DNA of 16,920 bases from Quisquiliibacterium sp. (lineage in GTDB: Bacteria > Pseudomonadota > Gammaproteobacteria > Burkholderiales > Burkholderiaceae_E), in contig JAURMJ010000195.1 in assembly GCA_030830765.1 (NCBI GenBank), forward strand, positions 1 through 16,920. The letters are read 5' to 3'. The position numbers and the translations under genes are program-made. Under the pieces are notes generated by a model. That model saw nothing but the letters and a program-made list of their open reading frames with translations. It was not told the origin of the DNA and ran no database searches. Shown piece after piece: positions 12,120 to 15,720 of this stretch (within the stretch, counting starts at the first letter, position 1; each line of letters starts with the position of its first letter).

Positions 12120-12515
12120 CTAGCCTTGCTTACTTGCCAGTTTGAGGCCAGGCCGCTCATCTTCAAGGTGCGCCATCGTACCCTCAATGATCGCGCCCGG
12201 ATGAATTTCAAGTGCCCGATAGCTGACCTGGCCCGAAATTCGAGCCATTGGCTGCAGTTCAAGGAGTTCCTGCGCCTGCACAGGCCCTTCAATCGAGCCG
12301 TTGACAATCACATTGTCTGCACGCACCCGACCAATCACGCGGGCCTGCTCGGACAGCACCAGAACGCTCGGAACATCGTCCTCAGCAATGACATCCCCAC
12401 GCACCTGACCGTCGATCCGCAACCCACCATGAAATCTGATGTTTCCTTCGATAACCGTAGAGGCTCCGATCAGGCTTTCAATTGCGTTACTCGGGGCTTT
12501 TTTCCGATTGAACAT
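12120..12515 (-). CDS. Bactofilin (polymer-forming cytoskeletal protein)
   Basis: 131-residue bactofilin, a nucleotide-independent filament-forming protein that lies under the inner membrane and helps position cell-wall or polar machinery. A short tail (MFNRKKAPSNAIESLIG) precedes a right-handed beta-helix of repeated short strands: TVIEGNIRFHGGLRIDGQVRGDV, then ARVIGRVRADNVIVNGSIEG, then ARISGQVSYRALEIHPGAIIEG (about 18-117). A polar tail closes it. It has a near-perfect Shine-Dalgarno (AAGGAGG, 12521-12527 on the plus strand) 5 nt before the ATG, suggesting high expression. Upstream by 69 nt is a coiled-coil membrane protein in the same direction, a plausible partner or anchor. Confidence 0.9.
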   Translation of the reverse strand: MFNRKKAPSNAIESLIGASTVIEGNIRFHGGLRIDGQVRGDVIAEDDVPSVLVLSEQARVIGRVRADNVIVNGSIEGPVQAQELLELQPMARISGQVSYRALEIHPGAIIEGTMAHLEDERPGLKLASKQG

Positions 12516-12584
12516 CTGTTCCTCCTTAAAGCTTGACGCCTGAGCCCAGGGTCTGAGTCAATCCTGCCCGTTGCTCAAACAATG

Positions 12585-13355
12585 TCATAGCATCGCGGTC
12601 TGCTGCGCCCGTAAGGTATCACCCTCAAGGACCCGAAGCTGAACTGATCGCACTTTCATACCGACGGGGACGTCGAAGATACCTTCAATGCGTTGATAGC
12701 GCCGAAAAGTCACTCTTACCTCCGGCTTTTCTGAGTCATCCGGGATAATCAGTACTTTCTTGCCCGCCTTGGACTCCAGTCTGACGGACAGTTGCCATGC
12801 TCCATCAAAGTCCCGGTCAGCCCGGGCATCCTGAGTGAGCAGTGCACGATAACGCAGCTGTCTGCTCTCCGGGACGGGACTCACTTCGAACCGCCGGATT
12901 GCAATCGGGCCGTCCGAGTTGCCTGCAGGCAACAGGCTTTCCAGGTAAGTCAGATCCGCCTTGAGCCGTGCATTTTCGGTTTCAAAAGTACGCATCTGAG
13001 CACTGAGACGCTCGGCCGCAACCCGCTCAACCAGCATGTTCGCATTGGCCGCCTGGGCCTGGGCTTGCATCTGCGCCTTCGCTTCAAGCGTACTGGAAAG
13101 CTGTTGCTTCAGCCGTTGCAGCTCCACGGCGTGCTGCCGTGCGGCCATCTGTAAAGCCGCCACATCGCGTTGCAGGCTCTGTCGGGCAGCCTGATCATCC
13201 CCTCGTGTTCCTTGCCACGCCCATGAGACCGCGCCCCCGACAACGAGCACAACCGCCGACTGAATCATCAGCCAGACGCTCCAATGCACATGGCGGCGAA
13301 CCTTCATCCGAGGGGTGCCGGCCGACATTCGACGTGCAAACAGTTTCAATTTCAC
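12585..13355 (-). CDS. Single-pass membrane protein with coiled coil (DUF6776-like)
   Basis: 256 residues from a GTG start (VKLKLFARRMSAG). A basic cytoplasmic N-terminus (1-25, with RMKVRRHVHW) precedes one transmembrane helix (about 26-47). A long coiled-coil-prone stretch follows (about 53-145, rich in Q, A, R and E), then a beta-rich C-terminal domain ending LEGDTLRAQQTAML. I recognise the layout as the betaproteobacterial DUF6776 type found near bactofilin and erpA; the function is unknown. The frame remains open 67 codons further upstream to a TTG at 13556 and includes a hydrophobic stretch, but the GTG at 13355 fits the family start. Its ribosome site (AAGAG) is weak. The adjacent bactofilin suggests an envelope or scaffold role; that is inference. 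Confidence 0.7.
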   Translation of the reverse strand: MKLKLFARRMSAGTPRMKVRRHVHWSVWLMIQSAVVLVVGGAVSWAWQGTRGDDQAARQSLQRDVAALQMAARQHAVELQRLKQQLSSTLEAKAQMQAQAQAANANMLVERVAAERLSAQMRTFETENARLKADLTYLESLLPAGNSDGPIAIRRFEVSPVPESRQLRYRALLTQDARADRDFDGAWQLSVRLESKAGKKVLIIPDDSEKPEVRVTFRRYQRIEGIFDVPVGMKVRSVQLRVLEGDTLRAQQTAML

Positions 13356-13633
13356 AGAGTTTGCTCTTGGACTGAACGGACGCCCCACTGCATTGAGCGA
13401 AACGCGCTCGATCGAGACAGGGATCAGACTGAAGTCGGGTTGTAACGAGGCGACCCGATGGTAGCACTCGAAAATCGCACAGATGCAACCCATGGCGCTG
13501 AAAACGCTCAGGACCCACCAGGGCGCAAGGGCTGGAGAGCCTTCAAAAGATCTCAAAGCCAGCCGGGACCGCGGTTCTCAACAGATAGCTGCAATGGCGC
13601 TCCAGCCTGATCCAATTGATCCGCCAGAACGAC

Positions 13634-13687: not shown

Positions 13688-14080
13688 TCAGCGCTTCGAG
13701 AACTGCTTGCGGCGACGTGCCTTGTGAAAACCCACTTTCTTCCGTTCAACTTCCCGTGCGTCCCGGGTAACAAAACCGGCGCCAGAAAGTGCAGGCTTCA
13801 AAGTCGCGTCATAGTCAACCAGCGCGCGGGTAATCCCGTGACGAACTGCACCGGCCTGGCCGGATTCACCACCGCCGTGCACGTTGACCATGATGTCGAA
13901 ACTTTCCAGATGATTGGTCAGTTCCAGCGGCTGACGCACAACCATGCGACCCGTTTCGCGAGCGAAGTACTGGTCGAGCGGCTTGCCATTGACGACCACG
14001 TCGCCCTTGCCCTTCTTCAGAAAAACCCGGGCCACGGAAGACTTGCGGCGGCCGGTGCCGTAGTAGTAATCGCCAATCAT
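13688..14080 (-). CDS. rpsI: 30S ribosomal protein S9
   Basis: 130-residue small-subunit protein whose basic C-terminal tail reaches the P-site tRNA. It begins [20 protein letters not shown], contains the conserved [23 protein letters not shown] segment, and ends [11 protein letters not shown] with the invariant KR terminus intact. Length and start are standard. It follows rplM by 88 nt in the usual L13-S9 operon and is closed by the hairpin terminator at 13634-13658. Confidence 0.98.
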
Positions 14081-14789: not shown

Positions 14790-14819
14790 ATTCTAACGCG
14801 AAGTCAAACGCAAAGTCAA
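14790..14819 (-). promoter_or_regulatory. Sigma-70-type promoter for rplM-rpsI
   Basis: On the minus strand TTGACT (plus 14814-14819), an 18-bp spacer and TAGAAT (plus 14790-14795) make a good housekeeping promoter, with a start site near 14783 and a leader of about 186 nt. The spacer contains a second TTGACT because of a 12-bp near-perfect tandem repeat. Confidence 0.75.
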
Positions 14820-14959: not shown

Positions 14960-14990
14960 AAAAAAAAGCCCGAGCGCTTTGGCTCGGGCT
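14960..14990 (-). terminator. Strong intrinsic terminator
   Basis: On the minus strand AGCCCGAGC, loop CAAAGC, GCTCGGGCT, then eight Ts (plus-strand stem arms 14967-14975 and 14982-14990, T-tract 14967-14960). The orientation shows that a minus-strand transcript comes from the 15000-15300 side and stops before rplM. Confidence 0.9.
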
Positions 14991-15049
14991 GAATCCACCA
15001 AAGGAGGAGGGTGGAGGAGACACCGGAGGGTCGCTCAAAAGCGACCGAT
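14960..15049 (-). ncRNA. Candidate ~90-nt small RNA with anti-Shine-Dalgarno loop
   Basis: Minus-strand RNA predicted from about 15049 to 14960. Its parts in 5'-3' order are as follows. Stem 1 is GGUCGC-UUUUGA-GCGACC (15046-15029). A linker follows with repeated CUCC. Stem 2 is UCCACC/GGUGGA (15015-15010 with 14999-14994) and presents a 10-nt loop CUCCUCCUUU. The last element is a terminator with a 9-bp stem (14990-14967) and eight Us. The loop contains CCUCCUUU, identical to the 3' tail of 16S rRNA that binds ribosome sites, so it could pair with many mRNA ribosome-binding sites. A promoter-like TTGCAG-17-TATCAT lies immediately upstream. No coding potential is apparent. Existence, ends and targets are inferred. 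Confidence 0.55.
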
Positions 15050-15055
15050 GCGGTC

Positions 15056-15084
15056 ATGATAGCGAATTATTTTGTGCACTGCAA
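15056..15084 (-). promoter_or_regulatory. Candidate promoter of the small RNA
   Basis: Minus strand TTGCAG (plus 15079-15084), 17-bp spacer, TATCAT (plus 15056-15061). The -10 is 5/6 of consensus and the -35 keeps TTG. A start about 7 bp on gives an A at 15049, just before the first stem. Confidence 0.5.
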
Positions 15085-15140
15085 GATCGAGTGAGGGATG
15101 CGCTCATTTCTCAAGCCAAGCAAGGCACCGAAGAAAGCCT

Positions 15141-15200: not shown

Positions 15201-15297
15201 ATCCTGGAATGGGTGATGAGGACTAGCCCAATCAAACGATCTGAATGCCGCAACGCAACACATCCTTGCGGATCGATAAGCAACAAAGGTGACTGAC

Positions 15298-15720
15298 ATG
15301 GAATGCACGGTGAAGTGGACAGGCCCGGACGGGATGAGTTTCCTTGCCGAGACCGGCAGCGGGCATGCTGTTTTGATGGACGGCGCCCCGGAGGGCGGTG
15401 GCAAGAACCTGGCCCCTCGCCCGATGGAGATGGTTCTGCTCGGAACGGGTGGGTGCACCGCCTACGACGTCGTCGTCATTTTGCGTAAGAGTGGCCAGGA
15501 CATTCGAGGCTGCGACGTCAAACTGAGCGCCGAGCGCGCCGAGACTGACCCCAAGGTCTTTACCCGCATCAACTTCCACTTCACTGTCCGCGGCCGCGCG
15601 CTGAAGGCCAACCTGGTCGAGCGGGCCATCAAGCTGTCGCACGACAAATACTGCTCGGCTTCAGCAATGATCGAAAAGACGGCGGAGTTGTCCATCGACT
15701 GGTCGATCGTCGAAGACTGA
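15298..15720 (+). CDS. OsmC/YhfA-family protein
   Basis: 140-residue protein of the OsmC/Ohr superfamily, whose characterised members reduce organic hydroperoxides with a pair of cysteines. The two conserved cysteines are C53 in GTGGCTAYDVV and C119 in KYCSASAM. The sequence resembles the YhfA-like branch rather than Ohr, so peroxide-reducing activity is likely but unproven. Additional cysteines are C3 and C72. The ATG at 15298 has AAAGG at good spacing; the in-frame GTG at 15289 overlaps that site and is less likely. It converges with coq7 across 43 bp. The AT-rich region upstream is its probable promoter. Confidence 0.88.
   Translation: MECTVKWTGPDGMSFLAETGSGHAVLMDGAPEGGGKNLAPRPMEMVLLGTGGCTAYDVVVILRKSGQDIRGCDVKLSAERAETDPKVFTRINFHFTVRGRALKANLVERAIKLSHDKYCSASAMIEKTAELSIDWSIVED

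Follow-up and report, generated by a model that had tools for sequence, protein, structure and literature searches.

On the minus strand of the window (the whole 16,920-nt stretch analyzed here), a small RNA transcript of approximately 90 nt is predicted at 14960..15049 from its fold, promoter and terminator, with the start estimated from the -10 element. On one side lie rplM (ribosomal protein L13, 14169..14597, Pfam PF00572) and rpsI (ribosomal protein S9, 13688..14080, Pfam PF00380), both on the minus strand as well. On the other side, a gene for an OsmC-like protein (15289..15720, plus strand, Pfam PF02566) points away from the sRNA. Near the rpsI-rplM pair, at 12120-13556 on the minus strand, a bactofilin gene (PF04519) adjoins a DUF6776 gene (PF20567) on one strand.

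The sigma-70-like promoter TTGCAG-17-TATCAT (15056..15084, minus strand) has its -35 element at 15084-15079 and its -10 element at 15061-15056, which places the sRNA start near 15049. This pair was absent from the output of a stricter promoter scan. A promoter-like pair before rplM, TTGACT-18-TAGAAT (14790..14819, minus strand), was found by the promoter scan and is separate from that of the sRNA.

The minus-strand RNA from 15049 to 14960 folded into three hairpins with a minimum free energy of -38.2 kcal/mol (z -4.65), and none of 200 shuffles was as good. The 5' hairpin occupies 15029..15046. Downstream of it is a single-stranded stretch complementary to Shine-Dalgarno (SD) sequences, UCUCCUCC (15013..15020), placed by the fold and by conserved columns. 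The middle hairpin carries a second anti-SD stretch in its loop, CUCCUCCUUU (15000..15009), and this loop includes CCUCCUUU at 15000-15007. The last hairpin is an intrinsic terminator (14960..14990) with nine pairs (14990-14967) and a run of eight U (14967-14960). The three consecutive hairpins, the terminator with eight U and the -35/-10-like pair with a 17-bp spacer had all been noted in a first-pass annotation and were confirmed. Its view of a compact, stand-alone sRNA of approximately 90 nt with its own promoter, terminator and anti-SD loop is likewise supported as a prediction.

Family, conserved structure and genomic setting

A covariance search with Infernal assigned 14960-15022 (minus strand) to Rfam RF02278, Betaproteobacteria toxic sRNA, at 78.2 bits (gathering threshold 50) over the whole model, positions 1-64 of 64. 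This core comprises the 5' anti-SD tail, a hairpin and the terminator. The layout of RF02278, namely two hairpins of which the second is a terminator, plus CU-rich single strands, is present in the window RNA. The first-pass annotation had been unable to tie the RNA to a described family; the score shows that it belongs to an already catalogued one, and finding it here would not in itself be a surprise to a specialist. Other families were tried and rejected. For NmsR (RF02877) the NmsRb model gave 33.2 bits against a gathering score of 52, and for MmgR / suhB (RF00519) the score was 14.2 bits against 41. SorX (24.5 bits) and SorY (24.6 bits) stayed under their thresholds, as did anti-hemB and ncS16 under their gathering scores. 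No CcsR family appeared among the 12 Rfam matches up to E = 5, and a CcsR model may not be in Rfam.

The window's genome has three RF02278 matches with 78.2, 59.3 and 37.5 bits, the last of them under threshold. The second lies between acyl-CoA dehydrogenase-like and LysR-like reading frames, which were named by eye. Within the window's taxonomic family, 71 of 74 genomes had a match. Of 150 genomes sampled evenly across the order, 98 matched at E <= 0.001, 58 of them over threshold. Some genomes carry many copies: at least nine in one genome (G006), two of them approximately 400 nt apart, and at least eight in another (G055). Wider comparisons were based on 148 matches, made up of 32 loci and 116 further listed places; these are the best-listed matches only and cover 92 of the 98 matching genomes, and the tandem neighbours G055:C1:2304465 and G043:C1:1107934 were left out.

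We examined the structure in 19 long-form orthologues, hand-picked for a covariation alignment. Both sides had changed at four of the six pairs of the 5' hairpin, with 91% of the cells paired, and at four of the nine pairs of the terminator. The middle stem was invariant in these sequences and therefore offers no covariation evidence for or against. Four of five covariation measures of the alignment beat 500 of 500 shuffles; the fifth, which concerns further pair types, was not above the shuffles (45 of 500 were as high). In a set of 32 members, which is mostly composed of the best-scoring matches and whose conservation is therefore biased upward, the terminator stem varied in sequence with most of its pairs kept. 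For 9 of the 14 predicted pairs, both sides had changed in at least one of these sequences. The steadiest parts were the 5' tail UGUCUCCUCC and the middle stem. The 5' hairpin is confined to long-form orthologues: several short-form relatives from the window's family lack it, because their promoter lies directly before the core.

The anti-SD stretches were conserved to different degrees. CUCCU occurred in 144 of the 148 related cores and GUCUCCUC in 117, compared with 45 for CCUCCUUU, the exact match to the 16S tail. The first-pass annotation had put its weight on a middle loop exposing this tail. The loop of the window RNA does hold CCUCCUUU, yet the exact tail is missing from most of the 148 relatives, so that this weight is not supported and we rejected exact 16S mimicry as a conserved feature. 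The 5' single strand UCUCCUCC is a second, better conserved anti-SD stretch, which had been overlooked.

The genomic setting is conserved as well. Of the 32 loci, 17 had rplM next to the sRNA with both on one strand, and the fetched DNA of the other 15 contained no rplM. Within the window's family, rplM was the neighbour in 28 of 30 loci; the interval comparison thereby bore out conservation in relatives with the rplM-osmC order. A divergent osmC lay on the other side of the sRNA in most rplM-linked loci. When 80 named rplM loci were searched, 15 had a strong RF02278 match, every one upstream of rplM and on its strand: 14 of the 26 loci with osmC in the fetched DNA, versus 1 of the 54 without. 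Four further matches among the 80 were weak, two at the usual place (L035 and L047), one after rpsI (L034) and one elsewhere (L053). Burkholderia and Paraburkholderia loci (L326-L328) showed the rplM-sRNA-osmC order of the window.

According to the literature on B. cenocepacia J2315, ncS27 encodes a processed RNA of 92 nt, which lies on the minus strand with BCAL3348a and BCAL3349 on either side; BCAL3348 is named among the ribosomal protein genes. As the position next to rplM and osmC is conserved and agrees with that of NcS27, we conclude that the window RNA is an NcS27 orthologue by position, as distinct from a letter-by-letter comparison with the J2315 sequence. We take bdhR1 to be identical with NcS27. 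The name bdhR1 is used for an RF02278 member in a preprint on the Bordetella sRNA S17 (PMC11722255).

A PhaR-like box over the -35 element

PhaR is a repressor that leaves DNA once granules of polyhydroxybutyrate (PHB) form. A PhaR consensus, YTKNTGCRNYGCANMAR, has been deduced for Ralstonia eutropha (PMC12849132), and PhaR sites of Sinorhizobium, including that of the sRNA gene mmgR, have been reported from EMSA (PMC12542648). The -35 element in the window sits in TTGCAGTGCACAA. A palindromic PhaR-like box with two mismatches to the R. eutropha consensus covers it (15071..15087, minus strand), with the core TGCAGTGCA at 15075-15083. The first-pass annotation missed this box, and the promoter is the new part of the present analysis. 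The window's genome has phaR (PF07879 at G000:C226:2391-2570), and both of its phasin genes carry the short pattern TTGCRNYGCAMMA just upstream.

Two observations favour a reading in which PhaR is uninvolved, with the RNA as a typical RF02278 sRNA and its palindrome either recognized by a different regulator or simply a lineage-bound variant of the -35 element. Taken by itself, the window shows no excess of the box over chance (2 matches versus 3.39 expected). In addition, TTGCRNYGCAMMA is overrepresented across genomes whether or not they have phaR: compared with a backward control, there were 548 versus 191 sites in genomes without phaR (ratio 2.87) and 2030 versus 832 in genomes with it (ratio 2.44; p 0.84). 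We therefore rejected this excess as evidence for PhaR, and the outcome makes PhaR control slightly less likely. The 21 versus 2 TTGCRNYGCAMMA sites of the window's genome say nothing about PhaR, since genomes that lack it show as great an excess.

The box upstream of the sRNA, on the other hand, tracked phaR. With the published consensus at up to two mismatches, within 150 nt upstream of RF02278 matches, a box was found at 57 of 118 matches in genomes with phaR and at 1 of 30 in genomes without. Background windows of the same loci had it in 66 of 1747 and 10 of 427 cases, respectively. For the 116 held-out matches, whose upstream DNA was unseen when the motif idea arose, the counts were 42 of 94 and 0 of 22 (Fisher p 1.5e-5); the 42 of 94 compare with a shuffle mean of 3.25 and a highest shuffle of 9. 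Thresholds of one, two and three mismatches were all computed. One mismatch gave 9 of 94 versus 0 of 22 held-out matches, and three gave 59 of 94 and 5 of 22, where the shuffle means were 20.1 and 3.8 (20 shuffles). Counted by genome, the box was present in 48 of 70 with phaR versus 1 of 22 without, and counted by family in 23 of 29 versus 1 of 11; the genomes are related, so that none of these box and phaR counts represent independent events. Family f42 opposed the trend, with the box in 1 of 2 without phaR and in 0 of 1 with it.

None of 200 permuted palindromes reached 57 (highest 23). As controls, the box was found at 29 of 32 phasin upstream regions (the best 30 phasin loci and the two of the window's genome, 240 nt each) and at 0 of 79 rplM upstream regions (150 nt, 79 of the 80 loci). 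In the best 30 loci from the window's family, 19 had the box at up to two mismatches and 9 more at three. Ten named genomes had it at 17 of 25 matches, four of them perfect. When 14 box-bearing promoters were picked by hand, 11 showed a TTG/TAnnnT pair 17 bp apart with the box over the -35 element.

Some copies are also physically linked to PHB genes. Nine of the 148 matches adjoin phasin or phaR in the fetched flank. Eight of these lie just downstream of a phasin gene on the same strand, approximately 10 to 290 nt past the aligned phasin, and the ninth lies beside phaR. Acidovorax radicis (L325) offers a named example of such linkage. By rough arithmetic, with two such genes per 3.6 Mb genome and 1.5 kb on either side, far fewer than one linked copy would be expected among 148. 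The linked copies are weak members, at 32-40 bits and under the gathering score, and keep the layout of a CU-rich start, a stem and a terminator.

The association is far from universal. No box was found at 61 of the 118 matches in genomes with phaR, and only 2 of 9 matches from the window's family in the order sample, in genomes with phaR, had one. Neither further RF02278 match of the window's genome has the box at up to two mismatches, and Cupriavidus gilardii has perfect boxes at two other copies and none at its rplM-linked copy. Of the 98 genomes matching RF02278, 23 had no detected phaR. Co-occurrence of sRNA and phaR was weak (75, 23, 31, 21; p 0.038), for which reason we rejected the idea that the one marks the other. 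A TATTAGA.AAT-type motif was observed upstream of 20 of 30 matches in genomes without phaR and of 3 of 118 in genomes with it (for example, L023, L025, L031 and L173). Perhaps it reflects another regulator or promoter type that takes over in genomes lacking phaR; as the promoter type may follow the tree, it also speaks for PhaR being uninvolved. Nevertheless, considering that the box follows phaR, recurs at phasin genes and is equalled by no permuted palindrome, and that some sRNA copies lie beside phasin and phaR, we regard an uninvolved PhaR as unlikely, though this remains the strongest of the competing readings.

A literature search covering titles, the beginnings of abstracts and the matches listed yielded no paper linking RF02278, NcS27 or S17 to PhaR, and PhaR goes unmentioned in the main text of either PMC5688073 or PMC11722255. 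The former paper refers, by way of a supplementary figure, to an upstream motif shared by three homologues, which may be the PhaR-like box.

Proposed role of the RNA

Taken together, the window RNA, an RF02278 sRNA and by position the NcS27 orthologue, probably blocks SD regions, is repressed by PhaR, whose binding we infer, and is released when PHB accumulates. The computed part of this reading consists of the family, the structure, the synteny, the association of box and promoter in phaR genomes and the linkage of some copies to phasin or phaR. Others have reported the effects of NcS27 on growth, the repression of targets by S17 and the control of phasins and mmgR by PhaR. The RNA would be made from its own sigma-70-like promoter. 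PhaR would bind the palindrome over the -35 element and repress the sRNA in PHB-making relatives, and probably in the window's organism too. Once PHB granules form, they would titrate PhaR and release the sRNA, which would then damp carbon uptake and catabolism, in a manner that may be likened to the working of alphaproteobacterial MmgR. Binding at the window promoter, PHB-dependent induction and the targets in this organism are what we infer.

As for the mode of action, the 5' tail UCUCCUCC and the loop CUCCUCCUUU would prevent translation of selected mRNAs by pairing with their SD regions. As the family is interpreted in the literature, the CU-rich single strands pair with the ribosome-binding sites of mRNAs, and 55-80% of the predicted contacts of double-hairpin RNAs are placed around such sites (PMC5688073). 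The same paper reports that overexpressed NcS27 slowed growth and that antisense silencing of its CU-rich part led to faster growth. S17 of Bordetella, RF02278-like in its 5' part, is reported to repress targets (PMC11722255), and NmsR of Neisseria to act through two anti-SD stretches placed as in the window RNA. By analogy with NcS27, S17 and NmsR, the window RNA would block the SD regions of chosen mRNAs.

The first-pass annotation had instead proposed a global translation inhibitor, in which a loop resembling the 16S tail titrates SD sites at large. The presence of CCUCCUUU in the window loop fits this, as does the growth inhibition reported when other RF02278 family members are expressed in E. 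coli. We nevertheless consider it improbable: the exact tail is found in only 45 of 148 relatives, a review describes NcS27 overexpression as affecting growth on some substrates and leaving others unaffected, and a published passage that concerns E. coli BL21 describes stationary-phase entry as only modestly impaired. The possibility that the element acts as an rplM-rpsI leader or attenuator, and not as a trans-acting sRNA, was rejected as hardly credible, since the position of all 15 strong matches upstream of rplM on its strand, which would suit it, is outweighed by the separate promoter-like pair between the sRNA terminator and rplM, by the number of copies that stand apart from rplM (the DNA fetched for 15 of 32 loci contains none), by the failure of any ribosomal-protein leader family to reach threshold on the minus strand, and by the reported nature of NcS27 as a short separate transcript.

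The PhaR-repressed, SD-blocking sRNA may represent a wider group. We lean slightly towards the view that RF02278 sRNAs form the RNA arm of the PhaR regulon, many with a PhaR-covered -35 element and some arising from the 3' ends of phasin mRNAs. If so, carbon storage itself would trigger the repression of carbon uptake and catabolism at the level of translation. Storage and translational control would then be coupled in a large group of bacteria living in soil, associated with plants or producing PHB. A 2017 Burkholderia paper calls the regulation of double-hairpin RNA accumulation unknown (PMC5688073). PhaR would become a candidate cause of that accumulation, and the PhaR link could explain when RF02278-type RNAs are made. 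A PhaR-like operator on the promoter is a named and cheaply testable answer on the control of these sRNAs; the interest lies in the promoter, which opens this control to direct testing.

Comparison with known sRNAs

Among the known systems, the NmsR siblings (RF02877) of Neisseria share three stem-loops with the window RNA, and of their two anti-SD stretches one is reported between hairpins 1 and 2, the other in loop 2. They are reported to act on TCA-cycle mRNAs. They differ in having tandem genes, and the NmsRb score is under the gathering score.

NcS27 shares the RF02278 family and the place beside a ribosomal protein gene, and its orientation on the strand opposite to BCAL3349 is a further trait in common with the setting of the window RNA. 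CU-rich single strands occur in both. The window RNA is predicted to be approximately 90 nt long with an extra 5' hairpin, compared with a reported length of about 92 nt for NcS27. By contrast, the organism is another one, and PhaR control is absent from the passages on NcS27.

S17 of Bordetella pertussis resembles the window RNA in its RF02278-like 5' part. Its promoter is given as -35 TTGCAT and -10 TACTAT with a 17-bp spacer, and its authors postulate a repressor without giving a name (PMC11722255). These published letters, as distinct from B. pertussis DNA itself, recur in Achromobacter anxifer (L315) and at locus L009, where a PhaR-like core lies over the -35 element. If the proposed control is correct, the postulated repressor would have a candidate in PhaR. 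S17 differs in its long form of 190 nt, which is processed to 67 nt, and in being highest in Bvg+ mode (PMC11722255).

A parallel in regulation is MmgR (alpha-r8) of Sinorhizobium meliloti, an sRNA whose gene is reported to be repressed by PhaR/AniA, with a PhaR site detected by EMSA (PMC12542648). MmgR differs in that it is no relative by its RF00519 score, and its reported role is the fine-tuning of PHB and phasins. If the proposed control holds, RF02278 sRNAs would be the convergent counterpart of alphaproteobacterial MmgR, and unlike anti-SD sRNAs would have come under PhaR in alpha- and betaproteobacteria.
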